Assembly: GCF_002135205.1 (NCBI RefSeq)
Contig: NZ_NEFZ01000002.1
Coordinates: 434,001-498,000, forward strand
Length of the DNA: 64,000 bases
Direction of reading: 5' to 3'
DNA from: Acinetobacter sp. ANC 4204
GTDB taxonomy: Bacteria > Pseudomonadota > Gammaproteobacteria > Pseudomonadales > Moraxellaceae
Shown: piece after piece, positions 46,143-64,000 of the stretch
Layout: every line of letters starts with the position of its first letter
Numbering within the stretch: position 1 is the stretch's first letter
Notes under the pieces: generated by a model
Told to the model about the DNA's origin: nothing
Seen by the model: only the letters and a program-made list of their open reading frames with translations
Databases searched by the model: none
Position numbers and translations under genes: made by a program

Positions 46143-46156
46143 GTGATATCCCTCTG

Positions 46157-47773
46157 CTATAAGCCTGTGATCTTACGAATGAGGTGATTGACCTCAATAT
46201 TTTCAAGGCTACCTGAGAACTGATCGGCTCCCTGACCAATTGCACCTAAAAACACATCTGCACCGCCATGCGTTTCTTTATCTTTATAGCCCGTTTGAAT
46301 CACAGCTTCTTGTTGGAAATCATCCGCAGCAGTGCCCGTACACCAACCCGTTTCAGCCAAAGGATAGGTGAAACTATATTTTTCACCTTGCGGTGCCTTT
46401 GGCCCTTGTACTGGATGACAGACATCAGTGTCTTTTAAGTTCAGTACCAAGTCATCCATACGGTTTTGAGTGGGGCGTTTTTTGCCCGTACCAAAACCGA
46501 TAATCGGATAAGGTTGACCATGAATATCTTGAGCAAAGCCCGCTTGGTCATAATTTTTTACCAATCCAAGCACGCTGGTTTCCTTACCTTCGACGTATTT
46601 TCCTGTACGCTTGGCATAACCATTTAAAACCAAGGTGTGATCATGGTCGGCCGTGATTACAATCAGTGTATTTTTAAGTTCAGGATCACTTTGTTTAAGC
46701 TTTTGAATGGTTGCTTCTAAAGCATCATTTAAGGCAATCGTGTCTTGTAAAGCACGTTTGGCATTGGTGTCATGCAGCGCATGATCTATACGCCCGCCCT
46801 CCACCATCAGGAAAAAACCTTTTTTATTTTGCGTCAGGATGTCTAAAGCAGACAGCGTCATTTGCTTGAGACTTGGCTCTGCCAAGTTTTTCTTGGTGCG
46901 ATCCAAGTCGTAATTTAAATGGCTGTGATTAAATAAACCCAATAATTTTTCATTTTTCGCCAGTTGCACTTGGGAGAGTTGGTTTTCATCAAAAACCACG
47001 CGGTAGCCTGCCTTTTGCATCTCGGTAATTAGATTGCGCCCATCAGTACGTTCTCCACCTGCATCTTTAGGCAAAAATTGACGCTTACCTCCACCCAAAA
47101 TTACATCGACTCCATCTTTGAGTTTGAGGTTATAGCGTTGATAATCATCGCCTTTTGAACTCGGCACCAACTGTGATGCAATGTCATTTTCAGCATCACG
47201 GTGGCATATATGCGCATAAGTCGATGCAGGCGTGGCATGCGTGATCCGCGTCGTGGTCACAACCCCTGTCCCCCAACCCTTTGCTTTGGCTAATTCGAGT
47301 AAAGTCTGTGTGTTTTGCTTATTTTTGTTTTGTGGGTTAGTCGCGCACTGGTTATTTCCTACTGAGTCAGGTTCAACCGCAATTGTCCCTGTCTGCATCG
47401 AGATCACCTCGTTTTTCATCTTCACACCGGTCATGTATGCGCCCATCGAAGGTGCGCTGTCCGTGACTTGTGCATCTTCAGAAAAGGTACGAACAAAAGC
47501 AGACTCAGGCAGCCGATCAATCGCCAACTGACCATCTTCACCAACAGCATAAATACGTGAAGCGGTAAGCGTGGTAATGCCCATACCATCACCCAAGAAA
47601 AAGACCACACGTTTCGGTTGTTGGACTTTTTCTTGTTGGAGCTGTTGCGCTGTATTGGCCTGTTGATTTCGCGTTATCGTCGTACTTTGACAAGCGGTAA
47701 GCAATAAAGCGCTGAAACTTATACATGCCACGCTGATTGTTTTTAATTGGAATTTTTCAAGAGAACCGAGCAT
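46157..47773 (-). CDS. Alkaline phosphatase, PhoA family (lipoprotein copy)
   Basis: From the ATG at 47773 the product is 538 residues. The signal peptide ends in lipobox LTAC (CISFSALLLTACQSTTITRN), so unlike its neighbour this copy is probably membrane-anchored. Shared motifs are VVFFLGDGMGITTLTASRIY, VTDSAPSMGAYMTGVK, LMVEGGRIDHALHDTNAKRA and VITADHDHTLVLNGYA. A Gln-rich segment after the lipid anchor (QQANTAQQLQQEKVQQPK) may be a tether. It lacks the copy-1 insert around residue 130 but has a longer C-terminal part with a likely disulfide (TDVCHPVQGP and ETGWCTGTA). It is first in the three-gene unit. The ribosome site is weak. Confidence 0.93.
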   Translation of the reverse strand: MLGSLEKFQLKTISVACISFSALLLTACQSTTITRNQQANTAQQLQQEKVQQPKRVVFFLGDGMGITTLTASRIYAVGEDGQLAIDRLPESAFVRTFSEDAQVTDSAPSMGAYMTGVKMKNEVISMQTGTIAVEPDSVGNNQCATNPQNKNKQNTQTLLELAKAKGWGTGVVTTTRITHATPASTYAHICHRDAENDIASQLVPSSKGDDYQRYNLKLKDGVDVILGGGKRQFLPKDAGGERTDGRNLITEMQKAGYRVVFDENQLSQVQLAKNEKLLGLFNHSHLNYDLDRTKKNLAEPSLKQMTLSALDILTQNKKGFFLMVEGGRIDHALHDTNAKRALQDTIALNDALEATIQKLKQSDPELKNTLIVITADHDHTLVLNGYAKRTGKYVEGKETSVLGLVKNYDQAGFAQDIHGQPYPIIGFGTGKKRPTQNRMDDLVLNLKDTDVCHPVQGPKAPQGEKYSFTYPLAETGWCTGTAADDFQQEAVIQTGYKDKETHGGADVFLGAIGQGADQFSGSLENIEVNHLIRKITGL

Positions 47774-47930
47774 GGCATCAACCCATCTAAAGATGGCTGA
47801 ACCATACACCGCAGATATTTAATTAAGATTACAACAGCACACAAACTTTAAATTTTCTTGGTACTTAGATATTTTTATCACGTTTCACAATGATTTTTAG
47901 TTGGGTACTTTTACAAAATCGGGCACTATA

Positions 47931-47990: not shown

Positions 47991-48779
47991 TTATTGCGCG
48001 GTATAACCGCCATCCATCACCACGGCTTGACCCGTTACACCACCCGCCTTATCACTGGCAAGGAAGATCGCATAATCCGCAATTTCCTCTACACTGAGTA
48101 AGCGTTTTTGTGGCACCATCGCCAAAATTACGTCTTCTAATGCACTTTGTTCGCTGACATTTCGAGTTTTAGCTAAGTCATGAATTTGACCACGTACCAA
48201 CGGTGTATCGACATAGCCCGGACACAGCGCATTCACCGTAATACCATCACGCGCACACTCTAAAGCCGCAACTTTGGTCAAACCAATCACACCATGCTTA
48301 GCACTGTTATAGCCAGCCTTGCCAGCAAAGCCAATCAGACCATTAATCGAAGCCATATTAATCACACGACCAAACTGCTGCGCTTTCATGATAGGAAATG
48401 CGTACTTGATACCAATGAACGACCCCACCAACATGACATTAATCAACTTTTGATAGACTGCGGTTGGAAAGTCCTCAATCACTGCAACATGCTGAAAACC
48501 TGCATTATTGATGAGAATATCCAAACGACCATAGGTTTGCTGAGTCAGTTCAATCGCAGCTTTATACGCGTCTTCATCAGTCACATCGCAAGGCGCAGAC
48601 AAAGCCTCAAAACCTTCATTTTGAAGAGCTGTAACCGTTTCAGCACACTTGTCTGCATTCATATCAGAAATGACAACTTTGGCACCTTCACTGGCAAATT
48701 TCTTTGCAATTTCATGTCCAATACCGCTGGCTGAACCAGTAATAAATGCAACTTTATCTTTTAACAGTTGACTCATCAT
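47991..48779 (-). CDS. hbdH: D-3-hydroxybutyrate dehydrogenase
   Basis: A 262-residue short-chain dehydrogenase that oxidises 3-hydroxybutyrate to acetoacetate with NAD+. The cofactor motif is ITGSASGIGHEIA near residue 14, the NAG motif is in INNAGFQHVAVIEDFP, and the catalytic Ser-Tyr-Lys are in NMASINGLIGFAGKAGYNSAKHG. The segments NAGFQHVA and CPGYVDTPLVRGQI are typical of the 3-hydroxybutyrate branch. It lies 34 bp after a GntP-type permease and faces the CoA-transferase genes across the LysR regulator, giving a complete ketone-body route. Confidence 0.92.
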   Translation of the reverse strand: MMSQLLKDKVAFITGSASGIGHEIAKKFASEGAKVVISDMNADKCAETVTALQNEGFEALSAPCDVTDEDAYKAAIELTQQTYGRLDILINNAGFQHVAVIEDFPTAVYQKLINVMLVGSFIGIKYAFPIMKAQQFGRVINMASINGLIGFAGKAGYNSAKHGVIGLTKVAALECARDGITVNALCPGYVDTPLVRGQIHDLAKTRNVSEQSALEDVILAMVPQKRLLSVEEIADYAIFLASDKAGGVTGQAVVMDGGYTAQ

Positions 48780-48813
48780 GTACTCCGTTGTCTTCTTTTT
48801 TCATTCCAAAGTC

Positions 48814-50238
48814 TTAAACAATACCAAACCAAGTAAAGGCAGCAATGGCAACAAATACCGCGATGGTTTTAATAATGGTGATAGCAAAAATATCTTTATA
48901 CGATTGTTTATGGGTTAAACCTGTGACTGCAAGTAAGGTAATCACAGCACCGTTATGCGGTAAGGTATCCATACCGCCTGATGCCATCGCAACAATACGG
49001 TGCATAACTTCGGGTGGAATTCCCATGGCTAGAATCGCAGCATTGTACTGATCGGCCATCGCACTTAGGGCGATACTCATCCCACCAGAAGCTGAACCTG
49101 TCACGCCTGCTAAAACTGTCGTGGTGACTGCACCATTGACCAGCGGATTGGTAAAGGTATTACCCAATGCATGACTAATGATCGCAAAGCCTGGTAAGGC
49201 CGCAATGATCGCACCAAAACCATATTCAGATGCAGTATTCATCACTGCAAGTAAAGACCCGCCAATACTGGCATTAACGCCATCTTTGAAGCCCGTATAG
49301 ACACGGCGGAAGTCAAATGAAATGGCTGTGATAATGCCCACAATCAAAGCCAAGCCCACGGCCCAAATGGCAGAAGTTTTCGCAACATCGACCGTGTAGG
49401 CTGCAAGTCCAATCGCATTAAAGTCGAAACCGTTTGGATACCATTCTTTAATCGCGGTTGATAAATACTTATTGGTCACGGCAACTAAAATAAGCGGTAC
49501 AAAAGCTAACCATTGACGCACGGTAGAACCATTTGATGTGGTATCTAAGTTTTGCTTCAGTTGTTGTTGCTCGGCTTCTGTCAGCTCAATACCTGTGGCA
49601 TAGCCATCCCCATTTCGAGCGGCTACACGGCGACGCCATTCTAAATAGCTCAAACCTGTAGCAAGAACAAATACACCACCAATCAAACCAAGAAACGGTG
49701 CCGCATAAATGTCCGTACCAAAGAATGTGGTTGGAATAACGTTTTGAATTTGTGGGGTTCCTGGCAAGGCATCCATGGTAAAGGTAAATGCACCAAGGGC
49801 AATGGTTCCTGGAATCAAACGCTTTGGAATATTGGCTTGTCTAAAGAGTTGATTTGCAAATGGATAAACGGCAAATACCACCACAAAGAGACTGACACCG
49901 CTATAGGTTAAAATTGCACCCAACAGCACAACAGTTAACATCGCATTTTTAGAGCCAATCAGATTGACAATGGTTTTGGCAATAGATTCGGCAATTCCTG
50001 ACATTTCAACCACTTTACCGAAGATGGCACCGAGTAAAAACACCAAGAAATAATCTTTAATGAACCCAACCATTTTGGGCATAAACACGCCTGAATAAAA
50101 AGGCAAAACGTTAGCAGGGTTAATCAGTAAAACCGCCAACAAGGCACAAATCGGTGCCATAAGAATTACAGAAAAACCTCTGTAGGCTGTATACATCAGT
50201 AGCCCAAGAGACAATAAAATTACACCCAAATCCCACAT
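48814..50238 (-). CDS. GntP-family permease, probable 3-hydroxybutyrate transporter
   Basis: A 474-residue inner-membrane protein with about twelve hydrophobic segments, beginning MWDLGVILLSLGLLMYTAYR. Family marks are GAIFGKVVEMSGIAESIAKT, PGTPQIQNVIPTTFFGT and GMDTLPHNGAVITLL. GntP proteins carry gluconate and other small organic acids with protons. Its place directly before the 3-hydroxybutyrate dehydrogenase suggests the substrate is 3-hydroxybutyrate or acetoacetate. A 7-bp inverted repeat with LysR-site geometry lies 83 bp before its start. Confidence 0.9.
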   Translation of the reverse strand: MWDLGVILLSLGLLMYTAYRGFSVILMAPICALLAVLLINPANVLPFYSGVFMPKMVGFIKDYFLVFLLGAIFGKVVEMSGIAESIAKTIVNLIGSKNAMLTVVLLGAILTYSGVSLFVVVFAVYPFANQLFRQANIPKRLIPGTIALGAFTFTMDALPGTPQIQNVIPTTFFGTDIYAAPFLGLIGGVFVLATGLSYLEWRRRVAARNGDGYATGIELTEAEQQQLKQNLDTTSNGSTVRQWLAFVPLILVAVTNKYLSTAIKEWYPNGFDFNAIGLAAYTVDVAKTSAIWAVGLALIVGIITAISFDFRRVYTGFKDGVNASIGGSLLAVMNTASEYGFGAIIAALPGFAIISHALGNTFTNPLVNGAVTTTVLAGVTGSASGGMSIALSAMADQYNAAILAMGIPPEVMHRIVAMASGGMDTLPHNGAVITLLAVTGLTHKQSYKDIFAITIIKTIAVFVAIAAFTWFGIV

Positions 50239-50816
50239 ATTTTTTACTCCATCCTTAAAGAAAATATGTCTTGATGTGCTGTGATATTAATGGCGAATGA
50301 TGTCAAATGTAGTTGAGTCACAGTACAATCAACCTGTACTGAAAGTACCCTATACGTATCCATAGACCGTCTATTTTCCATCATGACGAGATGTCTATGT
50401 GCACTCTGATCTGTGTACTATATTTATTCATCAGAGCATTAATATTTCAGCTTATGGGTCAGACTATAATGCATATAAACCCGCACATTGTTTGAAAATA
50501 ATCATTGAGTAAGAAGAAAAATTGATTAATATCCATGCCCTAGTAAGACTGATCAAACTAATTGTATCAAGTTAAAGGTAAAATTTCGAAATCACACAAA
50601 ATAATCAATTTTTATATTTTTCATTTAGTTAAAACATATTTTTACAGACTATCACGCTGTTCGGCTTATACTGCTTTGACCCATCGAATCAAAACCACAT
50701 TTACTTTCATCACTTGATCTATTTTGACCTCTTGTTGTATTTTTCATGTAAACCATTGGAGAAAAGCACGTTCACTTTCATTCGACATCGTGTTGCATCA
50801 TTGCTCAGGGAAGCTC
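50239..50816. other. Divergent control region between permease and LysR gene
   Basis: About 580 bp, AT-rich, without a credible gene. It contains the inverted repeat at 50321-50341 and must hold promoters in both directions. An in-frame extension of the LysR gene to 50724 has no support. Confidence 0.5.
50321..50341. promoter_or_regulatory. Inverted repeat, candidate LysR-type operator
   Basis: CAGTACA-ATCAACC-TGTACTG: perfect 7-bp arms with a 7-bp spacer, matching the T-N11-A layout of LysR sites. It is the clearest dyad in the divergent region and lies 83 bp upstream of the permease start. Confidence 0.55.
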
Positions 50817-51698
50817 ATGACACTCAAACAATTAAAAGCCTTTTTAGTCCTTGCACGTACGCTTAATTATGCCAATGCAGCCAATGAACTGTGTCTGAGC
50901 CAATCCGCTCTCAGCTTAAGTATTAAAACGCTAGAAGAGGAACTCGGTGGAAAACTGTTTAAACGCAATACACGTCGGGTAGCAATCACCACCGAAGGTC
51001 AGTCCCTGATTCCCTATGCCAAAAAGCTTCTGGCTAACTGGGAAGATATGGAAAAAGATGTCAAACAGCGCTTTAAACTCAACCGTGGCACTTTAAATAT
51101 TGCCTCAATGCCCTTTGCCACCCATGCGGTACTCCCCGCAGTCATGCATGATTTTTCACAATTACACCCCAACATCAGTTTTTCCATCCATGACATTACC
51201 AATGAAAAAATTATTGAAAAAGTTCAAGAAGGCATTTTTGAGATTGGCATTTGTTTTGAACCTAAACCGAATGATCAACTGATTTTCCAGCCCTTATTTA
51301 ATGAAGACTTTTTGGCTCTGTTACCCAAACACCATGCCTTAGCCAAACAAAAAAGCGTGACATGGCTGGAACTCTGCTCTTACCCTTTTGTGACCTTACA
51401 AAACCCCTCGATTATTCGACATGTAATTGAGGAACAGTGTGCTGCGCATCAAGTGGTGTTGGATTTGAAAGTCGAATGCCACCAAATCAGTTCCCTATCT
51501 CACTTTGTTGCCTATGGCATGGGCGTCAGTGCGATTCCACGGCATTTTCAGAAATTCATTGATCTTGAAAAAAATGTGTTGATTGAAATTGACGACAACC
51601 AAACTCAACTGGCGGTGGGCATTATTTATAAAAAAGATTATGAACTGTCCAACATTTCAGCCCAATTTATTGAAACCACACTTTGGCATCATTTTTAA
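50817..51698 (+). CDS. LysR-family transcriptional regulator of the ketone-body genes
   Basis: The ATG at 50817 with AGGGAAG before it gives 293 residues, the usual LysR length. The helix-turn-helix is at about 16-40 (LNYANAANELCLSQSALSLS), followed by LEEELGGKLFKRNTRRVAIT. The C-terminal part is the periplasmic-binding-like effector domain (IGICFEPKPNDQLIFQPLFN). It lies between the divergent permease-dehydrogenase unit and the CoA-transferase genes, so it probably controls both in response to a ketone body. Effector not proven. Confidence 0.92.
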   Translation: MTLKQLKAFLVLARTLNYANAANELCLSQSALSLSIKTLEEELGGKLFKRNTRRVAITTEGQSLIPYAKKLLANWEDMEKDVKQRFKLNRGTLNIASMPFATHAVLPAVMHDFSQLHPNISFSIHDITNEKIIEKVQEGIFEIGICFEPKPNDQLIFQPLFNEDFLALLPKHHALAKQKSVTWLELCSYPFVTLQNPSIIRHVIEEQCAAHQVVLDLKVECHQISSLSHFVAYGMGVSAIPRHFQKFIDLEKNVLIEIDDNQTQLAVGIIYKKDYELSNISAQFIETTLWHHF

Positions 51699-51934
51699 AG
51701 CCTCACTTTTATCCTTAAAGATGAATCTCTGTTCCTATTCCTTATGAATCAAATGCTTATAATTATTTAAATATTTAAGGCATTTTGTATTCTTCGCACC
51801 TAATTCTCTCTTTTTCCTTCTTTAATATTAATGATTAATGAGTTTTTTTTATTACACATTAGAAAGATTCAATTTCTAAAAAAAGCAGTGCAATGCTAAA
51901 AAAATAACAAGCAAGGAAGATCAGGAAATAAAGG

Positions 51935-52639
51935 ATGAATAAAGTTGTCGCAAATGCAGCCGAAGCATTGGCCGATGTGGTTGCCAATAATCAAACTATT
52001 GCTGTTGGTGGTTTTGGCCTCTGTGGTATTCCAGAAGCATTAATTGATGCCTTAAAAGAAACAGGTGTCACAGGTTTAACCTGCATTTCAAATAATGCAG
52101 GTGTAGATGGCTTTGGTTTAGGCAAACTATTAGAAACCAAACAAATTAAAAAAATGATTGCGTCTTATGTCGGTGAAAACAAAGAGTTTGAGCGCCAATA
52201 TCTGAATGGTGAACTTGAAGTCGAGCTCACACCACAAGGCACACTCGCAGAAAAACTACGTTCAGGCGGTGCAGGTATTCCTGCATTTTTCACCCAGACA
52301 GGTGTAGGCACTCTCATTGCCGAAGGCAAAGAAGTTCGTGACTTTGATGGTCGTCCACATATTTTAGAAATGTCTCTCACTGCGGACATTGCTTTAGTCA
52401 AAGCCTACAAAGCCGATAAAGCGGGTAACTTAGTGTTCCGTAAAACCGCGCGTAACTTTAACCCTGACTGTGCTATGGCAGGCAAATTCACCATTGCTGA
52501 AGTCGAACAAGTGGTTGAAATTGGTGAAATTGATCCAGATGACATCCATTTACCGGGGATCTACATCAACCGTGTGGTACTGAATGCCACCCCCAAAAAG
52601 CAGATCGAACAACTGACCATTAAAGCAGAGGAAGCTTAA
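51935..52639 (+). CDS. scoA: 3-oxoacid CoA-transferase subunit A
   Basis: A 234-residue alpha subunit with the family motif [20 protein letters not shown] near residue 20 and [14 protein letters not shown]. The enzyme transfers CoA from succinyl-CoA to acetoacetate (or to 3-oxoadipate in the Pca/Cat branch). Context with 3-hydroxybutyrate dehydrogenase, permease and LysR favours acetoacetate. The usual pcaIJ would be expected upstream of pcaH, beyond the right edge. AAAGG precedes the ATG. The B subunit follows after two bases. Confidence 0.9.
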
Positions 52640-52641
52640 TC

Positions 52642-53289
52642 ATGGCTTGGACACGTAATGAAATGGCACAGCGTGCTGCCCTTGAACTCGAAGATGGTTT
52701 TTATGTCAACTTAGGTATTGGCTTACCGACCTTAGTGGCCAATTATCTACCCGAAGGGATCAATGTTTGGTTGCAGTCAGAAAATGGCTTGCTCGGTATT
52801 GATGAATTTCCAACCCGTGATGCAGTCGATGCAGACTTGATTAATGCAGGAAAACAAACTGTCACCGCACGCAAAGGGGCTGCATTTTTCTCAAGCTCAG
52901 AATCCTTTGCCATGATTCGTGGTGGTCATGTCAATATTGCTATTTTAGGTGCAATGGAAGTCTCTGAAACGGGCGACTTGGCAAACTGGATGATTCCGGG
53001 TAAAAAAGTCAAAGGCATGGGCGGTGCAATGGACTTGGTCTCTGGTGTACAAAAAGTTGTGGTGCTCATGGAACACTGCGCCAAAGATGGCACGCCAAAA
53101 ATTGTGCCTCAATGTACCCTACCACTCACGGGTAAAGCTGTCGTTAGCCGTATCATTACTGACTTAGGTGTGATGGATATCACTGCTGAAGGGGTGAAAC
53201 TGGTTGAACTGGCACGCGATGTGAGCCTAGAACAAATCCAAAAGGCGACTGGTTTAACACTGATCATTAATGACTTTAAAGCCGCTTAA
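52642..53289 (+). CDS. scoB: 3-oxoacid CoA-transferase subunit B
   Basis: A 215-residue beta subunit. The catalytic glutamate lies in [14 protein letters not shown] near residue 51, and the glycine-rich motif is [20 protein letters not shown]. With subunit A it activates acetoacetate to acetoacetyl-CoA for thiolysis. Substrate choice between acetoacetate and 3-oxoadipate cannot be read from sequence alone. It is the last gene of the pair, with a hairpin 19 bp after the stop. Confidence 0.9.
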
Positions 53290-53308
53290 GTACAAAAACG
53301 ACATCATT

Positions 53309-53330
53309 CAAAGCAGCTTCGGCTGCTTTG
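53309..53330 (+). terminator. Terminator of scoAB
   Basis: Perfect stem CAAAGCAGC / GCTGCTTTG with a TTCG tetraloop. The T run is poor, but the stem is very stable and closely follows scoB. Confidence 0.7.
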
Positions 53331-53542
53331 TTATTGGGATCAATCAAAAAAATCAGTTAGCAAAAGGCTTCTTTATAGCCTTTAAATCCAACATAAAACC
53401 ATCATTACCTTGACCAAGTCTATCTCTCGATATTCTCGAATTTACCGAATGATGACTCCTGCGCACATTTTTTAACTCAAATACCTGATGAAAAACTAAT
53501 CCGCTCGGCTACTATATTTGCATTCCACATCCAGAGGTTCCC

Positions 53543-53929
53543 ATGTCACAACAAGATTATGAAAATGGTTTAAAAGTTCGCACAGAAGTCATGGGCGAAT
53601 CTTTTGTTAAACGTGCTCAAGACAATACTGTACCTTTCACCCAACCTTTGCAGGACTGGATTAATGAACATGCTTGGGGCTCAACATGGCAACGTGAAGG
53701 TGTTTTACCACGTAAATATCGCTCGTTAATTACCATTGCATTTTTGACGGCACAAAAGAGTCCAACAGAACTCAAAGGCCATGTTCGTGGTGCGCTAAAT
53801 AACGGTGCAACGGTTGAAGAAATTCAAGAAGTCCTTCTGCACAGTTTGCCTTATTGCGGCGCACCTGCAACTCAAGAGGCGTTCCGCGCTGCACTGGAAG
53901 TGATTCAGGAATATCAAAGCAATTCATAA
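53543..53929 (+). CDS. Carboxymuconolactone decarboxylase-family protein (PcaC-like)
   Basis: A 128-residue protein of the CMD family: the start YENGLKVRTEVMGESFVKRA matches 4-carboxymuconolactone decarboxylase, and the core includes RSLITIAFLTAQKSPTELKG, HVRGALNNGATVEEIQEVLL and HSLPYCGAPATQEAFRAALE. PcaC removes CO2 in the beta-ketoadipate pathway. In A. baylyi the pcaC gene lies beside pcaH in the pca operon. Here a copy stands alone, on the opposite strand, 10 kb away. It may be an extra paralogue with another lactone substrate. It is convergent with the receptor gene at 54030. Confidence 0.85.
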   Translation: MSQQDYENGLKVRTEVMGESFVKRAQDNTVPFTQPLQDWINEHAWGSTWQREGVLPRKYRSLITIAFLTAQKSPTELKGHVRGALNNGATVEEIQEVLLHSLPYCGAPATQEAFRAALEVIQEYQSNS

Positions 53930-54029: not shown

Positions 54030-56147
54030 TTAAAAGGCTTTAGTCACACTCATGCCAACGCTAAAGTTTCGACCATCGGCCGGTTCAAAGAAACGACTAT
54101 TGCTGTCATTCACAATCACTGAACCAACATAGTTACGGTCAAACAGGTTATCGACTCGAGCATAGCTGTTTACTTTCCAGTCACGGTTTACCCATAAGTA
54201 GCCGACATTTGCAGCCACAACGGTATAACTTGGTGCCGTATCTGAGTTGAGATCATCGACATAAATTTTATCCATATAACGTGCTTCTAAGCCTGCTTGA
54301 AAGCCTTGCTCAGGTTGCCATGCAATACGGGTAAACACTTGGTTTTTGGCAATTCCGGGAATATATGTCCCTTTTTCAATCAAAGGTTTGGTGCTAGTTG
54401 CTGCAATATCGGCATCAAAAGTGGCATCTAAATAACTATAGCTTGCACTAAGTTTTAAATCCTGCCAAAGCTGATGTTGCCAAGCCAGCTCAGCGCCTTG
54501 TCGTAAGGTTTGTTCTGCATTACGAAATGTATTGCGTCCCGCATTGGCATCATCAGGCACAATGTCATTTTTAGTGACAGTATTGAAAACAGCCAATGTA
54601 AACAGACCAAATGCATTTTGAGACTTTAACCCAAGCTCATAGGTATCACTACTTGCAGGTTTTAAATCGAAATTAATTCCCGATGTGGCCAATGTAGGAT
54701 AAGCCATTTCGGTAAAGCTTGGGGTTTCAAAGCCTTTGCCATAACTGGCATAAGCATAGAGTTCAGGTAAAATTTCCCAGCCTAAAGCCACAGATGGCAA
54801 TAGTTTTTGATAATCCGTTGAACCACTGTCATCACCATTGCCAGCTACAATGTAATGGTCTTCCGACTCATAATGTACATTGCTATAGCGTAAGCCTGTA
54901 TCAAGATGCCATGTGGGTAAGAACTGCCATGAGGCCTGCACATACGGATCTAAATTCCATAAGGTATTATTTTCATTACGGCGTAAATCACCTTTCACGC
55001 CAAATTTCCCTTGATTATTATAATTGTTATAGCCTTTACGGTCTTCCGTCATTCGGTCTAAAGCCACACCGGCAACCAAAGTTGTATTCGGTAAAAGTGC
55101 TTTCCCAGTCCAACGGAAATCTGCGCCATAATAATCTCGGTCAAAATCAATCACACCACCTGCATGGCGAGCATTGGCTTGTGGCCCCTTTGGAATCGAC
55201 TGATATTGTACGACTTGTCGGTTGCCCAAATAGAACATGCTATATAGCTCTTGCTGGTCATTTAATGGCTTCGTCCAGGTCAGTCCTGTTTGGGTTTGTT
55301 CAATTTCTTTACGGACATTATAAGTATTTGTACGGTCATTCACTTGTTTCGGATTGGTTTTCCACTGCTCACGACTGAGGCCTTGTGGGTCGTCAGCATC
55401 AATATCGACACGATTCATCACCCAGTTGATTTTACTGCCATCCTCTAAGTTCCATGTCAGTTTGGCATTATTCAGTACTTTTTGTGCTGCACTATGGTCT
55501 CGAAAACCATCGGTATCAAAATAAGAAGAACTAATCACATAAGCGGGCTGATTGGCCTGTTCGGAACCCCCTTGTAATTGGATATTGGCTTGTTGCTTAT
55601 GGTGGCTGCCTGCATTGAGTCCCACTTGAATTGAGTCTTTCCCTTGTCCTTCTTTGCTCTCAGCTAAGATGGTTCCCCCTGATGAGTTGCCATATAAAGA
55701 TGAAAATGGCCCTGTCAGTACTTCGATGTGATCTAAACTATTGAGGTCAATATTAGAACTTTGCCCTTGGCCATCAGGCATGGTCGCAGGAATACCATCG
55801 ACATACATTCGAATGCCACGCACGCCAAAAGTCGAACGAGCGCCAAAGCCACGCATCGAAATCTGTAAGTCTTGCGCATAGTTTTCACGGTTATTGATTT
55901 GTAAGCCTGCAACCCCTTGTAAAACTTCGGATAGATTCACATTGGTATTGTTTTGTACTGTAACCGCTTGGACTTTTTGAATAGATGCAGAAGTCGATAA
56001 CAACTCGCTATCGGTATGTACCGCTTGGACAGTGATAATAGGAAGTTGATATTCTGTCGTTTCTGCATAGGCATGCATCGTTTGTAAAATAACTGCAGTC
56101 AATAAGGCTTGTTTAAAAGGCGCAGGCATCAAATAAGTTAATCGCAC
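54030..56147 (-). CDS. pqqU: TonB-dependent receptor, PqqU/YncD homologue (predicted PQQ uptake)
   Basis: A 705-residue receptor starting at GTG 56147 with AAGGAAA before it. Long blocks agree with E. coli YncD/PqqU as I remember it: LQGVAGLQINNRENYAQDLQ, RGIRMYVDGIPATMPDGQGQ, GFRDHSAAQKVLNNAKLTW, EDRKGYNNYNNQGKFGVKGD, VAGNGDDSGS and DNLFDRNYVGSVIVNDSNSR. E. coli PqqU is the receptor for pyrroloquinoline quinone. Here the gene follows quiA, whose product needs PQQ. A terminator-like hairpin lies between them, so its expression may be partly uncoupled. The Ton-box region is near LPIITVQAVHTDS. Homology is clear; PQQ specificity is inferred. Confidence 0.88.
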   Translation of the reverse strand: MRLTYLMPAPFKQALLTAVILQTMHAYAETTEYQLPIITVQAVHTDSELLSTSASIQKVQAVTVQNNTNVNLSEVLQGVAGLQINNRENYAQDLQISMRGFGARSTFGVRGIRMYVDGIPATMPDGQGQSSNIDLNSLDHIEVLTGPFSSLYGNSSGGTILAESKEGQGKDSIQVGLNAGSHHKQQANIQLQGGSEQANQPAYVISSSYFDTDGFRDHSAAQKVLNNAKLTWNLEDGSKINWVMNRVDIDADDPQGLSREQWKTNPKQVNDRTNTYNVRKEIEQTQTGLTWTKPLNDQQELYSMFYLGNRQVVQYQSIPKGPQANARHAGGVIDFDRDYYGADFRWTGKALLPNTTLVAGVALDRMTEDRKGYNNYNNQGKFGVKGDLRRNENNTLWNLDPYVQASWQFLPTWHLDTGLRYSNVHYESEDHYIVAGNGDDSGSTDYQKLLPSVALGWEILPELYAYASYGKGFETPSFTEMAYPTLATSGINFDLKPASSDTYELGLKSQNAFGLFTLAVFNTVTKNDIVPDDANAGRNTFRNAEQTLRQGAELAWQHQLWQDLKLSASYSYLDATFDADIAATSTKPLIEKGTYIPGIAKNQVFTRIAWQPEQGFQAGLEARYMDKIYVDDLNSDTAPSYTVVAANVGYLWVNRDWKVNSYARVDNLFDRNYVGSVIVNDSNSRFFEPADGRNFSVGMSVTKAF

Positions 56148-56172
56148 AATATTTCCTTGCTTGTTATTACCA

Positions 56173-56208
56173 TAAAAACGGGAAGCCTATCATCTCGACA
56201 GGCTTCCC
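56173..56208 (-). terminator. Terminator or attenuator between quiA and pqqU
   Basis: On the minus strand GGGAAGCCT / AGGCTTCCC with an eleven-base loop, followed by GTTTTTATGG. It closes the pca-qui operon, or limits read-through into the receptor gene. Confidence 0.8.
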
Positions 56209-56223
56209 ATACAATAAAACGTT

Positions 56224-58647
56224 TTAATCGGCTAAGCTATACGCAACCACATAATCGCCATGATCAGGCGACTGACGTGCTCCACCTGCGGAAATGACCA
56301 CATATTGCTTGCCTGTTTTTGGAGAAATGTAGCTCATCGGGGTACCTTGGCTACCCACGGGTAAACGCGCTTTCCATAACTCTTCACCATTCGATGAATT
56401 GAAAGCACGTAAGTAGAAGTCTTGTGTTGCAGCAAAGAACACTAAACCACCTTGCGTCGCCATTGGGCCACCAATCGTTGGCATACCAATCGGCGCTTTT
56501 AAGCCCATTTTAATGCCCATTGGACCAGTATCTTCAACCGTACCCAAAGGCACCTGCCAAGCCACTTGACGGGTTTTCATATCAATCGCCGTCATGGTTC
56601 CGAAAGGTGGTTTTTGGCATGGAATGCCCAGTACTGACATAAAGCGGTTTTTATTCACTTTATACGGTGTACCTTTCATTGGCACTGCGCCCATACCAGT
56701 GTTGACCTTCTCTCCGCCACTGGCTTCAAGTTTTAAGTCTTCAGGCGTTTGTTTAATCAGCTGAATCCACAGACCTAGGCGCATGTCGTTGACAAACATA
56801 TAACGGTGCGTTGGGTCAAATGCGATACTGCCCCAGTTCATCCCACCCAGCGAACCCGGAAAACTTAAAGATACATCTGAACCTGGTGCTGTAAAGAGAC
56901 CGTCATAGCGCATTGATTTAAAGTTAATACGACACATCAACTGGTCAAATGGCGTTGCGCCCCACATGTCCGATTCAGTCAAAGTTTGATTGCCAATCTG
57001 TGGCATTTCAACTGAACGCGGCTGAGTTGCACTATATTGCTCATCAGGGATATCTGCAGCTTTTACAGGTTGCTCAACCACTTTGGTTAAAGGCTTGCCT
57101 GTCACACGGTCAAGTACAAAGAACTGACCTGACTTGGTGCCAATGACAACAGCAGGTTTGGTTTGCCCATTTTGCATTGGAAAGTCGACCAAGCTTGGCT
57201 GCATGGGTAAATCAAAGTCCCAAAGGTCATTGTGAACAGTTTGATAAACCCACTTCTCTTGGCCTGTGGTTGCATCTAAAGCCAAAACGGAAGAATTGTA
57301 CTTATGATCTACAGGTTGACGGTTTCCGCCCCAAACATCGACCGATGAACTCCCCATCGGTAAGAACACCGTGTTCATTTGCGGGTCGTAGGACATTGCC
57401 GCCCAAGAGTTAGCCGAACTACGTTTATAGATTTCACCCGGTTTCAGAACATAGTTTGGATTTGGGTTACGTGGATCAAAAGCCCAACGCAGTTGCCCAG
57501 TAATCACATCATAAGCACGAATCACACCACCCGGCATATCCGCTGCAAAGTTATCAGCAATACGACTCCCGACAATGATGCTGGTGCCTGCAATAGTTGG
57601 CGCCGAGGTCACTTCAAAACGAGGCGCTTGCGTGCCCGCACCTAGACCTTCCAGTAAGTTCACCGTTCCATCGACACCAAAGTCTTTGCAGCGTTCGCCT
57701 GTATCGGCATTGACTGCAATTAAACGACCATCAGGTGTATTGGTATAAACACGACGTGGACATGCGGTATTATTTGCCACCGCTGTCACCGCACTTGCAC
57801 CTGCTAAAGTCGGTTGTACCAAGGCTTGAGTCGAGTCAAAGTAACCCACACCCCGGCAACGCTCCCAAGCATCCGCTTTAGAGTTCACTTCAGCCTTCCA
57901 GATTTGTTTACCTGTGTCTGCATCTAAAGCAATAATGTTGTTATGCGGTGTACATAAAAAGACTTTATCACCGACCTGCAAAGGCGTGAGCTGGTCTTCT
58001 GCGCCATTACCCGTACCTGTAGTCATATCGCCTGTTTGAAAGCGCCATGCTTCTTTTAACTTAGACACATTATTACGGTTAATCTGATCCAGTGCGGCAA
58101 AACGACTTCCACCAGCATCATTACCATAGTGCGACCAATTCACTTGTTGGGTTTGAGCCGTTACAGGCACTAGAGGGAGCTCTTCACCACTGGCTTTTAC
58201 CGTTGGATGTGGAATAAACATGCCATATAAACCACCCAGCATACCTAACACCGTCAAACCACCTAAGGCATAAGCAGGTGCTGAAGGCGCAATTTGAAAT
58301 TGGTACTTACGAATAGCAGGTAAAGTAAAACACAGTGCGGCAAATAAACCCGCAGGAAACATTAACCGTGAATGGAGTGCCCAAAAATCCCAACCTGCAT
58401 CAAACAGTGCCCAGACCACGGTTCCAAGAAAAACCAAGGCAAAGATCCAAACACCCAAAGCTTTTTTTCTAAAAATAAAGATTGCGGAAATGGTGGTTAA
58501 TACGCCTGCAATCAGGAAGTACCATGAACCCCCTAGACTAATCAGTTTTCCACCACCGATTAAATAAAATAAGCCAGTCAGCAATAAAGCCAAGCCTAAT
58601 ATAAAGCACCATATTTTAAATATGGGTTGAGATTGCGCTTCGGACAT
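56224..58647 (-). CDS. quiA: PQQ-dependent quinate/shikimate dehydrogenase
   Basis: An 807-residue membrane-bound enzyme, close to the 809 I recall for A. baylyi QuiA. Residues 1-140 hold five hydrophobic helices (IWCFILGLALLLTGLFYLIG and others). The rest is an eight-bladed PQQ propeller: WSHYGNDAGGSRFAALDQIN, GSRIADNFAADMPGGVIRAY, DLWDFDLPMQPSL and MPTIGGPMATQGGLVFFAAT. It oxidises quinate to 3-dehydroquinate and shikimate to 3-dehydroshikimate in the periplasm, passing electrons to ubiquinone. It is the last gene of quiBCXA and lies next to a PQQ-receptor homologue. Confidence 0.96.
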   Translation of the reverse strand: MSEAQSQPIFKIWCFILGLALLLTGLFYLIGGGKLISLGGSWYFLIAGVLTTISAIFIFRKKALGVWIFALVFLGTVVWALFDAGWDFWALHSRLMFPAGLFAALCFTLPAIRKYQFQIAPSAPAYALGGLTVLGMLGGLYGMFIPHPTVKASGEELPLVPVTAQTQQVNWSHYGNDAGGSRFAALDQINRNNVSKLKEAWRFQTGDMTTGTGNGAEDQLTPLQVGDKVFLCTPHNNIIALDADTGKQIWKAEVNSKADAWERCRGVGYFDSTQALVQPTLAGASAVTAVANNTACPRRVYTNTPDGRLIAVNADTGERCKDFGVDGTVNLLEGLGAGTQAPRFEVTSAPTIAGTSIIVGSRIADNFAADMPGGVIRAYDVITGQLRWAFDPRNPNPNYVLKPGEIYKRSSANSWAAMSYDPQMNTVFLPMGSSSVDVWGGNRQPVDHKYNSSVLALDATTGQEKWVYQTVHNDLWDFDLPMQPSLVDFPMQNGQTKPAVVIGTKSGQFFVLDRVTGKPLTKVVEQPVKAADIPDEQYSATQPRSVEMPQIGNQTLTESDMWGATPFDQLMCRINFKSMRYDGLFTAPGSDVSLSFPGSLGGMNWGSIAFDPTHRYMFVNDMRLGLWIQLIKQTPEDLKLEASGGEKVNTGMGAVPMKGTPYKVNKNRFMSVLGIPCQKPPFGTMTAIDMKTRQVAWQVPLGTVEDTGPMGIKMGLKAPIGMPTIGGPMATQGGLVFFAATQDFYLRAFNSSNGEELWKARLPVGSQGTPMSYISPKTGKQYVVISAGGARQSPDHGDYVVAYSLAD

Positions 58648-58827: not shown

Positions 58828-60147
58828 TTAAAAATTCACCTTAACGCTAAGACCCGCCACCCATGCGTCATCCACTTCTTTCACCCCAGAAGGTTGATAG
58901 ATATATTGCAAGTTGGGTCTGAGCATCACCGCAGGAGACCATTGGTAGGTATAGTTCAACTCAACATTGAGTTCGTCATGTTGAATTGGGACATAATCGC
59001 TGGCGAGCGCGTCATAACTGTAATAACCACGGCCTTCGTTGGTGGCGATTTGTTTATCCGTCACACGGCTATTCACCACATAGTTGGCCAAACCAAAGCC
59101 AATCGAGTCATTAGGGCGACTGTCAAAAGGACCTTTATACCAAAGTGCCAACTGCTGCGTACTTTCTACGGCGGTGGTATCTCGGTCATTGATGACCCCA
59201 TTGAAACTGATATATAAACCACGTTTAGGGTCAGCCCCATGTTGGGTTAGTTGTTGTTGAGCATTTAACCAGAAACTATATTTGCCATCGTGGATTTCTC
59301 CTGATGTCCCCACATCTTTAGCTTCTGCTGTGGAATACAGTGCGCCGAGTTTATATTCGCCCGGTAAACCATTAAATGTGGCAAGTTTTGGTTTCCATGC
59401 CAGTTCAACTGGAATGGTGGCCCCTTCGACATTGTCCATATCGAGGTTAAAACCATCACTGTCCGAATCTGTTTTGACATTGTCAGGATTAACTTCATAG
59501 ACCCCAACACCAAGTGACCAGTCTGGTGCAAATTGGTATTTCACATTGGTACCCCATAAGCTGACAGGCCAGTTATACCAAATCGAACCGATAGATTTGC
59601 CTAACTGTCCACCACACAAAAGTAAGTTCTGAAACTCACATTGCGAGCTGTTAAAATCATCGGACATGCCCATACGACCAATCTTAAATTGGACATGGTT
59701 ATCATCAAATCCTGTTTTAATCCATGCTTGGGTGAGGCGCCAGATCTTGCCACGTCCATAAATTTCTTGAGTATTCCCCAAGGTGCTGGCACGTGGATCT
59801 TTAATTCGCGCTAAAGTTAATGAATTACCATCACGTTTGGTAATCATTAAGCCTGCTGTGGTATTTTCCCAACCTGCAATTTTGTTTAAATCAAAATTGG
59901 CACCTAAAGTCAGTTGTCCCGCATTTTCCAAAGTGTTGTCATCGTTATAACCACCAGCCAAATTGGTCGCTGCTTGGCTCATAATCGAAGCTGTAAATTT
60001 ATAACCTTGATCTTCCAGTTGCTTCCGTTCACCGTTCCAATCGCCGAATAACCATTGACGGTCTGCCGAGTAAAATTCATTGGCTGACGCCAATTGGCAA
60101 GTTAAAAGCGCCAAAGATAATGTGCCTAGTTTTAAGAGTTGTTGCAT
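58828..60147 (-). CDS. quiX: OprB-like outer-membrane porin of the quinate operon
   Basis: The ATG at 60147 with AGGATG before it gives 439 residues and a clean signal peptide (MQQLLKLGTLSLALLTCQLASA). The mature start NEFYSADRQWLFGDWNGERK and the C-terminal strand ending AWVAGLSVKVNF fit the carbohydrate-selective porin OprB family. It probably lets quinate, shikimate or their products through the outer membrane. It lies between quiC and quiA as in A. baylyi. About 180 bp without a terminator separate it from quiA. Confidence 0.88.
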   Translation of the reverse strand: MQQLLKLGTLSLALLTCQLASANEFYSADRQWLFGDWNGERKQLEDQGYKFTASIMSQAATNLAGGYNDDNTLENAGQLTLGANFDLNKIAGWENTTAGLMITKRDGNSLTLARIKDPRASTLGNTQEIYGRGKIWRLTQAWIKTGFDDNHVQFKIGRMGMSDDFNSSQCEFQNLLLCGGQLGKSIGSIWYNWPVSLWGTNVKYQFAPDWSLGVGVYEVNPDNVKTDSDSDGFNLDMDNVEGATIPVELAWKPKLATFNGLPGEYKLGALYSTAEAKDVGTSGEIHDGKYSFWLNAQQQLTQHGADPKRGLYISFNGVINDRDTTAVESTQQLALWYKGPFDSRPNDSIGFGLANYVVNSRVTDKQIATNEGRGYYSYDALASDYVPIQHDELNVELNYTYQWSPAVMLRPNLQYIYQPSGVKEVDDAWVAGLSVKVNF

Positions 60148-60203
60148 AACCAAACATCCTTTTTTGTGAGGAAAGCTCAACCGAACTTTCCATGCGGTTT
60201 TTA

Positions 60204-61664
60204 TTATTTAATGCGAACAGCTGGACTCAATTCAGAGGTCGCCCCTAAGTGATCTGTGACATTGGCGGTGACATTCGCCACACCACTTGCCACTTTCCAT
60301 GTTGCTTGACCCTGACCTTGTGCATCGGTTGTCACCACTTGAGTACCTAAATACTGCTCTGCTTCTTGACTCTTCGCTTGACGATTGGCAAAGAATTCAA
60401 CCTGATAGCGTTGATTTGGTTGTGCTTGTACTTCAGCCGTGACTTGACCTTTGCTATAGCTTAAACGTGGCGCTTGGATATTTTGGTTGGGTATCGCATT
60501 ACAACCCTGTTCATTTGGCTGGGTACAGGTTTTTTGCAGTTTCGCTGCTTCAATGACCACACCACCCCCACGAGAACCGACGAAGCCAGCATGTTCTAGC
60601 GCAGGCACAGCAAACACAATGGCACCTAAACGTTGATTGGGTACACACGAACCACCCGCTTCACAGCGCTTAATATCTTTGCCATTGTCCCAAATTAAGT
60701 TTTTGGTCAAGGTTGTGCGGGCATTGGCATCTTTTTCTGAACGAATGGCTATCCCTAAACGGTTAGCATGAACTTTATTGCTGTCAAAAATGTTGCCATC
60801 ACCCGTGAGGTTAAAGCCAATTGAGTTGTTGGTCAGTTCGTTATAAGCGATGTAATTGCGCTTACCCCAGTTGATTTGCAAACCATCAGAGTAATTTTCA
60901 AATTTGTTACCGACCACCGCATTATCATTGCCCCACAGGATTTCAATTCCTTGTGACGGTTCTGGATTGGCTTTGGTTGAAGTAAATAGGTTATTAGCGA
61001 CAAGGTTAAATGCCGCGCCACGAGTGAGTTCAAGACCATCGCCATTATCTACAAATAAGTTATTTAAAACTTTGTTGTTATTGGTGGTGGTCGAGGTTGG
61101 ATTGCCCTTACCATCATCACCCGTCAACATCACGCCTGAACCACCGTAGTTATTACTGATACGGTTATGTTGAATCAAGTTATTGCTTGAACGGTTCACC
61201 AAAACGCCAATACAGAAACGGTGAATATCGAGACCTTTTAAGGTCACACCATTAACATCTTGCAGAACCAGACCCGGTAAAGTCATGGTACGGACATTGG
61301 TGCCATACTGTTCAGGGTTTGCCCCTGGGCAGGCTTTAGCGCCCTCACCTTTAATATAGTTTGAACCATCAATCACAATAAACTCGCCTGTTTTGTCCCA
61401 TTGCATCCCGATGATCTTCACTGAAGACTTAATTGGCGGTAAAGGCTGATTTAGTTTAATGGTATAAGGTGCTTTGCCCACAGCTTGGATGTGAATTTCA
61501 TTTTCTTGCGCCGTATTGGCATTCGATTGTTCAATTGCCCAACGCAGTGAACCTTTTGCACTATCATCCTGATAACGATCCACAATATAAGTTTCTGCAC
61601 TGGCCAAACCTGATGCCGCTAAACTCAAAACCAATGTGGTCAAACGTAAAGTTGATGGTTTCAT
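60204..61664 (-). CDS. quiC: 3-Dehydroshikimate dehydratase QuiC (beta-helix type)
   Basis: A 486-residue protein with a signal peptide (MKPSTLRLTTLVLSLAASGLASA). The middle part (about 130-330) is a right-handed parallel beta-helix of NosD/PbH1 type: LQDVNGVTLKGLDIHRFCIG, NLIQHNRISNNYGGSGVMLT and AFNLVANNLFTSTKANPEPS. The C-terminal part is an Ig-like domain ending SELSPAVRIK. In Acinetobacter QuiC converts 3-dehydroshikimate to protocatechuate in the periplasm, with no resemblance to the TIM-barrel AsbF-type dehydratases. Assignment rests on gene order plus length. AAAAGGATT precedes the ATG. Confidence 0.9.
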   Translation of the reverse strand: MKPSTLRLTTLVLSLAASGLASAETYIVDRYQDDSAKGSLRWAIEQSNANTAQENEIHIQAVGKAPYTIKLNQPLPPIKSSVKIIGMQWDKTGEFIVIDGSNYIKGEGAKACPGANPEQYGTNVRTMTLPGLVLQDVNGVTLKGLDIHRFCIGVLVNRSSNNLIQHNRISNNYGGSGVMLTGDDGKGNPTSTTTNNNKVLNNLFVDNGDGLELTRGAAFNLVANNLFTSTKANPEPSQGIEILWGNDNAVVGNKFENYSDGLQINWGKRNYIAYNELTNNSIGFNLTGDGNIFDSNKVHANRLGIAIRSEKDANARTTLTKNLIWDNGKDIKRCEAGGSCVPNQRLGAIVFAVPALEHAGFVGSRGGGVVIEAAKLQKTCTQPNEQGCNAIPNQNIQAPRLSYSKGQVTAEVQAQPNQRYQVEFFANRQAKSQEAEQYLGTQVVTTDAQGQGQATWKVASGVANVTANVTDHLGATSELSPAVRIK

Positions 61665-61708: not shown

Positions 61709-62566
61709 TTAAGGGGTTGGTTGTACAGTTTTCAGCAACTGTTTGAGTTGAGTCACATCAATTTGACCTGGTGCAGAAGCTTCACCAATCATGCCGAAAC
61801 TTAGGCTGCCACCCATGTTGGCAGTCGCCACACGTGAAATGGTGCCCAACTGTCCCATCGACATGGTCAGTAGTGGTTTTTGAGTTTTTTGACTGACCGC
61901 CAAGGTGGCATTCATGAGGGTAAAGACATCTTGTTTTGACTTTGGCATTACCGCAATTTTCAAAATGTCGGCACCCATCTGATCTTGTTTTAGCAGACGG
62001 TTTTCAATGTCTTGTTGCTCAGGTGTTTTTGCAAAATCATGATTCGACATGATCACCAACACCTTCTTGTCATGCGCCAATTTGGTTAATTTCGCCACAC
62101 TGCCTGCATCACGGAACATTTCAATATCCAGCAATTGCATAAATGGCTTTTTCAGGTATTCACGATAAATTTTTTCATAGTTTTGGTCAGACACCGTCAT
62201 TTTTCCGCCTTCGTTATGGGTACGAATAGTGGCGATTAACGGTTTGTCTTTTAAAATTTGATTCAACTGCTGACCCAATGCCATCACTTTTTTAGTGTCG
62301 GCAGAAAATTCCAATAAGTCGATACGAAACTCAGCCACATCTGCGTTTGGATTACTGGCAATCACTTTTGCTTGGGCAATCGCTTGTTCAGCCGTTTTTG
62401 CGGTAATCGGCACAATGGTTTTGACAGGTAAGTCACCAATATTGAGGTTTTTCACCACATAGTGTTGTACGCTTGATTGAGCTACTTCCGCTGCAAATGC
62501 TGGCATTGCTGCTAAAACAGCACTGCTTAAGCAAAGTTGCATCGCAATTTTTTTGATTTTCATCAT
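61709..62566 (-). CDS. quiB: Periplasmic type I 3-dehydroquinate dehydratase
   Basis: A 285-residue enzyme with a signal peptide (IAMQLCLSSAVLAAMPAFA). The rest is an AroD-type TIM barrel: ADVAEFRIDLLEF, VIMSNHDFAKTP with the catalytic His, ILKIAVMPKSKQD with the Schiff-base Lys, and GGSLSFGMIGEASAPGQI. It dehydrates 3-dehydroquinate to 3-dehydroshikimate. The signal peptide separates it from the biosynthetic AroD or AroQ enzyme and keeps this catabolic step in the periplasm. It lies between pcaG and quiC. Confidence 0.95.
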   Translation of the reverse strand: MMKIKKIAMQLCLSSAVLAAMPAFAAEVAQSSVQHYVVKNLNIGDLPVKTIVPITAKTAEQAIAQAKVIASNPNADVAEFRIDLLEFSADTKKVMALGQQLNQILKDKPLIATIRTHNEGGKMTVSDQNYEKIYREYLKKPFMQLLDIEMFRDAGSVAKLTKLAHDKKVLVIMSNHDFAKTPEQQDIENRLLKQDQMGADILKIAVMPKSKQDVFTLMNATLAVSQKTQKPLLTMSMGQLGTISRVATANMGGSLSFGMIGEASAPGQIDVTQLKQLLKTVQPTP

Positions 62567-62716: not shown

Positions 62717-63346
62717 TTAGATATCCAAAAAGACCGTTTCGTCTTCTCCTTGAATACGAATGTCAAAGCGATACACCACTTCACCATCACGCTGTTCACG
62801 TTTTGCAATGAGGGTTTGACGACGAGGTGCCCACTCAATGCCTTTCAGCACAGGATCTTGTGCATTGGCTTCCACTTCATCTTCAAAATAGACACGGGTG
62901 TTCAAACCGATGTTGATACCACGTGCAAAAATAATCAGTGCAATATGCGGGGCTTGAGTTGCGCCTTTACGTCCCGGAACAGCACCCGGTTTAATGGTAT
63001 TGAAACTCCAAAAACCAGTTTCAAAGTCTGCCCCTGTACGTCCCCAGCCGAGGAAGTTCGGATCGACTGCTTTGCCTTGAATATCCGCTGCACTTGGATA
63101 CACGCCGTTGGCATCTGCCTGCCAAATTTCAATCAATACATCGCGTAACGGCAAACCTAGACCGTCGAATACTTGACCCTCTAAGCGAATACGTTCGCCT
63201 AAGGTTTTTTCTTGAACCAACTGATTGTTAAAGTTGTTTTCAAAGACTTCAATGTTGGCTTGTTGGGGCAACAAACCAATGTGTACGTATGGCCCACCTG
63301 TTTGAGATGGCGTTTCATGCAATTCTTGAAAGTTCCAATGGTTCAT
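62717..63346 (-). CDS. pcaG: Protocatechuate 3,4-dioxygenase alpha subunit
   Basis: The 209-residue alpha chain: MNHWNFQELHETPSQTGGPY at the start, then GQVFDGLGLPLRDVLIEIWQ, WGRTGADFETGFWSFNTIKP and AQAPHIALIIFARGIN-like segment (TQAPHIALIIFARGINIG). With the beta chain it opens protocatechuate to 3-carboxymuconate. Iron is held by the beta chain; the alpha chain lacks the full Tyr/His ligand set, as usual. It lies 15 bp after pcaH and 150 bp before quiB, in the A. baylyi order. Confidence 0.96.
   Translation of the reverse strand: MNHWNFQELHETPSQTGGPYVHIGLLPQQANIEVFENNFNNQLVQEKTLGERIRLEGQVFDGLGLPLRDVLIEIWQADANGVYPSAADIQGKAVDPNFLGWGRTGADFETGFWSFNTIKPGAVPGRKGATQAPHIALIIFARGINIGLNTRVYFEDEVEANAQDPVLKGIEWAPRRQTLIAKREQRDGEVVYRFDIRIQGEDETVFLDI

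Positions 63347-63361: not shown

Positions 63362-64000
<639 letters not shown>

Follow-up and report, generated by a model that had tools for sequence, protein, structure and literature searches.

A quiA-Linked PqqU-Type Receptor Likely Captures External PQQ in an Acinetobacter Genome That Appears Unable to Make the Cofactor

The gene that follows quiA in Acinetobacter sp. ANC 4204 is predicted to encode an outer-membrane, TonB-driven PQQ receptor, which most likely captures external PQQ for the quinate dehydrogenase QuiA and for a second, Gcd-like enzyme; the quiA-linked gene copy appears to have arisen once and to have replaced the native pqqU in 10 of the 14 genomes that carry it. We put the probability of this reading at roughly 85%. 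By analogy with E. coli PqqU, the receptor would transport PQQ, and QuiA would be expected to depend on it when PQQ is scarce. The window, i.e., the whole stretch of DNA analyzed, comprises 64,000 nucleotides, and all positions given below without a locus identifier refer to it.

The receptor gene (54030–56147; 705 aa, GTG start) is located on the minus strand, as are quiA and the genes upstream of it in the window; its assignment as a pqqU-type TonB-dependent receptor draws on the open reading frame, Pfam and NCBIfam profiles, PDB matches, contact residues, a tree, and dN/dS values. As the first-pass annotation had stated, and as the coordinates bear out, it follows quiA (56224–58647) on the same strand at a distance of 76 bp (56148–56223). 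QuiA, named from its qui context, belongs to the glucose/quinate/shikimate family of membrane PQQ-dependent dehydrogenases; it passes TIGR03074 (1093.9 bits; cut-off, 832.65), contains a PQQ propeller according to Pfam, and sits in the qui cluster. Further upstream are quiX (58828–60180), encoding an OprB-family porin (PF04966); a quiC-type gene (60204–61664) encoding a beta-helix protein with NosD-type repeats, a 3-dehydroshikimate dehydratase by position; quiB (61709–62566), encoding a type I 3-dehydroquinate dehydratase that scores over the cut-off of the aroD model; pcaG (62717–63346), encoding a protocatechuate dioxygenase subunit by position and similarity between loci; and pcaH (63362–63979), which runs off the window end. 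Profiles back quiA and quiB as well as the porin and beta-helix assignments; the names quiX, quiC, pcaG, pcaH, and the remaining pca and qui names are ones we assume from the gene order of A. baylyi ADP1. Beyond the window (L108) lie pcaC, K, D, B, F, J, and I, as well as pcaU, so that the locus reads, in transcription order, pcaI J F B D K C H G quiB C X A and the receptor gene, with the IclR-type gene pcaU divergent at its head and the receptor gene at the 3′ end of the pca-qui cluster. The order from pcaI to quiA is shared with the ADP1 cluster. The region convergent with pqqU (47991–53929) contains genes for a short-chain dehydrogenase, a GntP-type permease, a LysR regulator, a CoA-transferase pair, and a carboxymuconolactone-decarboxylase-like protein; it presumably represents a hydroxybutyrate-type locus, here beside a complete pca set. 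Two adjacent genes on one strand (44631–47809) encode what we take to be proteins resembling alkaline phosphatases. For ADP1, PMC4213383 names a pcaI–quiA operon.

Of the long sequence blocks that the first-pass annotation had seen to be shared with E. coli YncD, the quoted one, RGIRMYVDGIPATMPDGQGQ, is present in the receptor, with a single residue that deviates from E. coli PqqU. The best PDB matches, which extend over the length of the receptor, are both YncD/PqqU (6v81 and 9c4o; 657 and 653 bits), and the next receptor type reaches 68.5 bits; aligned identity to E. coli K-12 PqqU (YncD; NP_415968.1) is 45%. Pfam places a receptor plug (PF07715) and barrel (PF00593), both over cut-off, and PADLOC returned no match. 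The best NCBIfam model is PqqU (811.5 bits), followed by a siderophore model (172.8 bits); since this score lies below the curated cut-off of 1200 bits for the equivalog TonB_rec_PqqU (NF041535), the receptor is not filed under that equivalog, although no other model scored higher. An AlphaFold model of the receptor is of low confidence (mean pLDDT 56.5), and a fold search with this low-confidence model ranked 9c4o (E = 5.6e-53) and 6v81 (E = 2.8e-52) first, the next match having E = 2.7e-24.

Munder et al. 2025 (PMC12124388) count 12 PQQ-contact residues in PqqU and give Y/F/W99, R304, and R365 as its signature; our comparison covers the 11 residues that can be named from their text. Nine of these are identical in the window receptor, Y99 is replaced by F, which the published rule accepts, and N477 is replaced by T; the signature is present as F107, R310, and R370 (positions 99, 304, and 365), with both arginines kept. 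The same pattern was found in 54/54 complete Acinetobacter rows, unlinked PqqU included (one partial row was set aside, and many rows represent one gene under two locus identifiers). Among more distant gammaproteobacterial matches, 26 of the 29 examined carry the signature (the misses are G314, G439, and G319), as do two further receptors inspected in addition. Alignment to PqqU, one of the checks proposed in the annotation, hence sides with PqqU and away from siderophore receptors, with the contact residues kept, and the receptor can be regarded, by the published signature, as a divergent member of PqqU. Compared with the E. coli protein, it has the same fold family and differs in F for Y99, T for N477, and its score below the NCBI equivalog cut-off; the E. 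coli gene lies between mcbR and yncE, whereas the window gene lies behind quiA. E. coli, too, is described as unable to make PQQ, judging by the titles of cited papers.

On the evidence of pqqC and pqqE, the window genome, a 3.9-Mb assembly of 19 contigs with a completeness rating of 100%, appears unable to make PQQ. The search for PQQ biosynthesis covered these two genes; pqqC had no match in the genome, and no pqqE candidate scored over the cut-off (best, 50 vs. 381 bits). Both searches score clearly in other Acinetobacter, with pqqC over cut-off in 43/175 genomes and pqqE in all four pqqC-bearing controls, and therefore work. The genome nevertheless encodes two TIGR03074 dehydrogenases, QuiA and a second one that we take to be Gcd-like. 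With PQQ enzymes present and both synthesis genes absent, scavenging appears to replace synthesis. The quiA-linked receptor is the one PqqU found in the genome (next receptors, ≤52.7 bits) and should for this reason serve the second dehydrogenase besides QuiA. The proposal in the first-pass annotation that the cell scavenges external PQQ to charge QuiA thus gains support from the PqqU identity and the kept contact residues; the annotation had left it at scavenging instead of or alongside synthesis, and the absence of pqqC and pqqE, against positive controls in the genus, points to "instead" here, although of the pqqABCDE search it had suggested, those two genes are the part covered. The pqq cluster is reported for under 20% outside the A. 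baumannii complex (PMC9162365), which fits the search results here. For ADP1, PMC4213383 reports that growth on quinate requires the pqq genes, that four of five rise on quinate, and that a PcaU-like site lies by pqqA. ADP1 makes PQQ, whereas in the window genome a receptor gene stands after quiA, and pqqC and pqqE were not found.

Comparative data by themselves back a PQQ role for the receptor, PqqU and PQQ dehydrogenases being jointly present or jointly absent across Acinetobacter. In a survey of 175 genomes, in which a match of at least 515 bits counted as PqqU and a match to QuiA at E 1e-100 or better as a membrane PQQ dehydrogenase, each was present in 144 genomes; 143 had both, 30 had neither, and two were discordant. 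One of the latter, with the dehydrogenase only, is a genome that is 64% complete (G152). The other (G138) has PqqU only, with no QuiA-type match and no PF01011 match at E 1e-20, and is a real exception. Its pqqU (L208:6467–8593), the sole case of PqqU without a PQQ enzyme, adjoins genes that we take to resemble an arsenic resistance cluster. On a kinship tree of rpoB-rpoC from 77 genomes (80 chosen, three without an rpoB match; sample enriched for genomes without PqqU), 11 independent pairs differed in PqqU; the dehydrogenase agreed in 10.4 of these on average and was opposite in none (median p = 0.002), and dropping four less complete genomes raised agreement to 10.7 of 11. Some PqqU was found in 85 of the 86 quiA genomes, the exception being the incomplete G152. 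PqqU is also present in 59 genomes without quiA, 58 of which carry another membrane PQQ dehydrogenase, ruling out a receptor for quinate itself. Of the comparative results, this co-occurrence, which does not hinge on quiA, makes the strongest case that PqqU serves PQQ enzymes.

The survey of PqqU neighbors across Acinetobacter, also suggested in the annotation, showed that the arrangement recurs. Whereas quiA (at least 81% identity) was found in 86 genomes, the quiA-pqqU pair on the same strand occupies 15 loci in 14 genomes (14/175 overall, 14/86 with quiA; 77–104 bp between match ends), leaving 72/86 quiA genomes without it; one genome, G004 (94% complete, 7% contamination), has two linked copies. 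The environmental A. tandoii DSM 14970 (locus L086), for example, carries the pair. The outer neighbors of the pair differ, downstream genes vary between lineages, and in G088 (L210, G088:C77:64000-80000) the pair occurs without quiBCX upstream. In a quick tree of 54 rows with an E. coli outgroup, all linked receptors (15) group in a single clade (SH-aLRT 97) that lies within Acinetobacter PqqU; its sister is the G047 copy, whose branch was flagged as long, and the copies of G077, G071, and G078 are near. Because all 15 receptors fall in one clade, the adjacency, which is beyond chance, would represent one inherited or exchanged arrangement rather than 15 independent ones, and the quiA-linked pqqU appears to have arisen once within Acinetobacter. 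Given the sister position of the G047 copy and the nearness of those of G077, G071, and G078, in this quick tree with its long G047 branch, we rejected the idea that the linked copy stems from a local duplication of the native gene in the recent past. No unlinked gene is closer to the linked receptors than that of G047 (L205, G047:C1:2585000-2602000); on its strand, 2.8 kb away and separated from it by two genes, stands another gene for a membrane PQQ dehydrogenase. Compared with 13 of the other 14 linked copies, the window copy has dN/dS values of 0.05–0.16, indicating purifying selection on the linked receptors.

Identities of quiA and rpoBC are out of step. The nearest relative, G115, is 95.2% identical to the window genome in rpoBC and 92.2% in pqqU, but 79.9% in quiA, while the window quiA is 95–96% identical to those of G075 and G010, at 88–89% in rpoBC; quiA was therefore exchanged between species, here with a history partly apart from that of pqqU. 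C-terminal PqqU-like pieces (query residues 429–703, 81.5% identical) are present on plasmids of A. towneri and A. baumannii (L106:6001–6825 and L107:6001–6825), in the latter case with macrolide resistance genes and insertion sequences within a few kb; seven PqqU-like plasmid records fall in the 80–90% identity band. All 14 linked genomes are non-producers for pqqC and pqqE (pqqC in 0/14; pqqE over cut-off in 0/14). Among quiA genomes, pqqC was found in 0/14 linked and 32/72 unlinked ones (Fisher p = 0.0015, kinship ignored), but on the rpoBC tree the association comprises three independent pairs and is not significant; we therefore dropped it as proof that linkage followed loss of PQQ synthesis.

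Unlinked pqqU has a different home. In 11/11 named unlinked loci examined, it adjoins a gene that we take to be mutM-like, and an FMN oxidoreductase gene follows in 10/11. These unlinked receptors, which stand next to mutM and not behind quiA, are 62–75% identical to the window protein (59% in G003), have the same contact residues, and fall in one tree with it. In the window genome, the native site (L109) retains these neighbors but is empty, the intervening 803 bp showing no trace of PqqU (best E = 1.0). Ten of the 14 linked genomes, including this one, have no second PqqU above 515 bits, and in these 10 the linked pqqU thus appears to have supplanted the native gene; the other four (G075, G004, G107, and G042) have a second PqqU. 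The reverse situation is represented by G160 and G126, in which the linked pqqU behind quiA is cut down to its first 49 and 24 codons, respectively, and by G161 and G081, with no pqqU match within 1.5 kb behind quiA; all four keep an unlinked pqqU, that of G081 being matched as two pieces on two contigs. OprB-type porin genes precede the unlinked pqqU in 6/11 loci examined (e.g., the porin gene at L089:8640–9938), the Gcd-like gene (porin gene at L110:13145–14422), and quiA (porin gene at 58828–60180); porin, PQQ enzyme, and PQQ receptor genes tend to stand together.

Side-by-side genes for importer and PQQ enzyme recur outside the genus but are uncommon. In an evenly drawn sample of 369 gammaproteobacterial genomes, 36 had a PqqU-like match (E 1e-80), i.e., 35 besides the window genome; of these 35, 22 had PF01011 proteins (E 1e-20), which, compared by eye, lay within 2 kb of the receptor in two. 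One (G539) has a Gcd-type enzyme convergent with the receptor at 109 bp, and the other (G212) has a PQQ dehydrogenase with a cytochrome domain upstream of the receptor on the same strand, the open reading frames overlapping. Munder et al. 2025 (PMC12124388) describe four Burkholderiales in which PqqU is syntenic with genes of PQQ biosynthesis, whereas in the window PqqU is linked to a PQQ-using enzyme in an apparent non-producer; "quinate" does not occur in the main text of that paper. Searches of open-access literature, judged by titles and abstract openings, brought up no report of the quiA-pqqU pair, the emptied native site, or the genus-wide co-occurrence.

The spacer between quiA and pqqU contains a predicted terminator-like hairpin of 15 pairs followed by a T-run (56178–56210, minus strand). 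The spacer folds at −26.5 kcal/mol (z = −4.84; 0/200 shuffles as low), and among six terminator-like sites in the 10 kb scanned (10.9 expected) the hairpin is the longest and the only one that stands out. The covariation alignment comprised 15 of 19 spacers, namely 13 from intact linked loci and two from loci cut short. Across these 15, 94.8% of the cells in the stem are paired and no slid register comes near; 33 cells are changed on both sides, which 0/500 shuffles reach, while the seven pairs changed on both sides are reached by 85/500 shuffles and the number of pair types by 495/500, and the RNAalifold structure was predicted from the same alignment as tested, which favors that structure. 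A T-run of at least four follows the stem in 6/15 linked loci, the window's included, and is lacking in the other nine; by the start pattern used, all 15 linked loci have a GTG start. A promoter scan (13 sites; 19.7 expected) found no promoter-like site in the spacer. Although pqqU shares the strand of the pca-qui transcription unit at a 76-bp gap, the hairpin with its T-run (56210–56178) intervenes, and pqqU is therefore not filed as an operon member; it appears to lie beyond the point where the pca-qui transcript ends. Transcription may read through, attenuation may act, or pqqU may have its own promoter; any coupling to growth on quinate would require either transcription past the hairpin or a promoter that the scan did not find. 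The claim of the annotation that the pairing gives independent support for the PQQ role of this family holds in part; with one origin, presence in 14/86 quiA genomes, and an intervening hairpin, the pairing gives some support but less than claimed, and for these reasons the genus-wide co-occurrence is the stronger support.

Several points speak against the main reading, i.e., the score of 811.5 bits against a cut-off of 1200, the hairpin, the exception G138, the three uninformative pairs, and the 72/86 quiA genomes without the pairing, and other explanations were weighed against it. TonB-dependent receptors have one common fold, and an ordinary siderophore, heme, or B12 receptor could thus bear a partial likeness to YncD; 657 bits for PqqU against 68.5 for the next type, profile scores of 811 against 173 bits, and a lead of PqqU/YncD in the fold search of about 28 orders of magnitude in E-value rule this out for practical purposes. 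Its position in a quinate locus, N477T, and the bit score under the NCBIfam PqqU cut-off would suit a receptor whose specificity had shifted from PQQ to a plant-derived quinate ester or some other ligand related to the catabolic locus. We consider such a switch improbable; the contact residues are those of unlinked Acinetobacter PqqU (54/54 complete rows, some genes counted twice), 58 of 59 genomes with PqqU but no quiA encode another membrane PQQ dehydrogenase, and in 10/14 linked genomes this receptor is the only PqqU found. That the cell makes PQQ after all, through genes that the assembly lacks or that have diverged beyond the reach of the searches, and that the receptor only recaptures it, is less probable still: the assembly has 19 contigs and the search covered two of the pqq genes, but the assembly is rated 100% complete, pqqC had no match and the best pqqE reached 50 against 381 bits in searches that score clearly in other Acinetobacter, and none of the 13 other linked genomes was over the pqqE cut-off.

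The explanation that comes closest to an even chance, while falling a little short of it, accepts that PqqU imports PQQ and denies regulatory meaning to its site behind quiA; recombination would have placed the gene there, the hairpin would isolate it, and it would have its own expression for any PQQ enzyme. A terminator-like hairpin with a T-run that covaries across loci, the restriction of the pair to 14/86 quiA genomes, the partly separate histories of quiA and pqqU, and a second dehydrogenase in the same genome are consistent with this. Retention of the pair across lineages with different outer neighbors, also in G088 without quiBCX, argues against it, as do the nine of 15 linked loci with no T-run of at least four directly behind the stem and the spacer in which no promoter-like site was found. 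Alternatively, and more tentatively, quiA-pqqU may be a small exchangeable unit for quinate use by PQQ non-producers, uniting the enzyme and the importer of its cofactor, in which the covarying hairpin acts as an attenuator that yields few receptors per dehydrogenase, the native pqqU being lost afterwards; although we consider this rather unlikely, it would place the PQQ supply of all quinoproteins in such cells, also that of the Gcd-like enzyme, under the quinate locus.

Under the main reading, that of a PqqU-type receptor supplying QuiA and the Gcd-like enzyme, PQQ would be captured outside the cell and moved through the barrel with energy supplied via TonB, as in the known PqqU mechanism, and in the periplasm it would be taken up by apo-QuiA and the apo-form of the Gcd-like dehydrogenase. 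The QuiA and Gcd families act on the periplasmic side, and hence no further transporter would be needed. Import would probably replace the synthesis that feeds the ADP1 pathway, suggesting one pathway whose cofactor is made in one lineage and probably imported in the other. The window genome represents an apparent natural PQQ non-producer with one recognizable PqqU beside an enzyme that should need PQQ on a plant compound, and the value of PQQ scavenging in nature may therein be testable by a simple growth assay.
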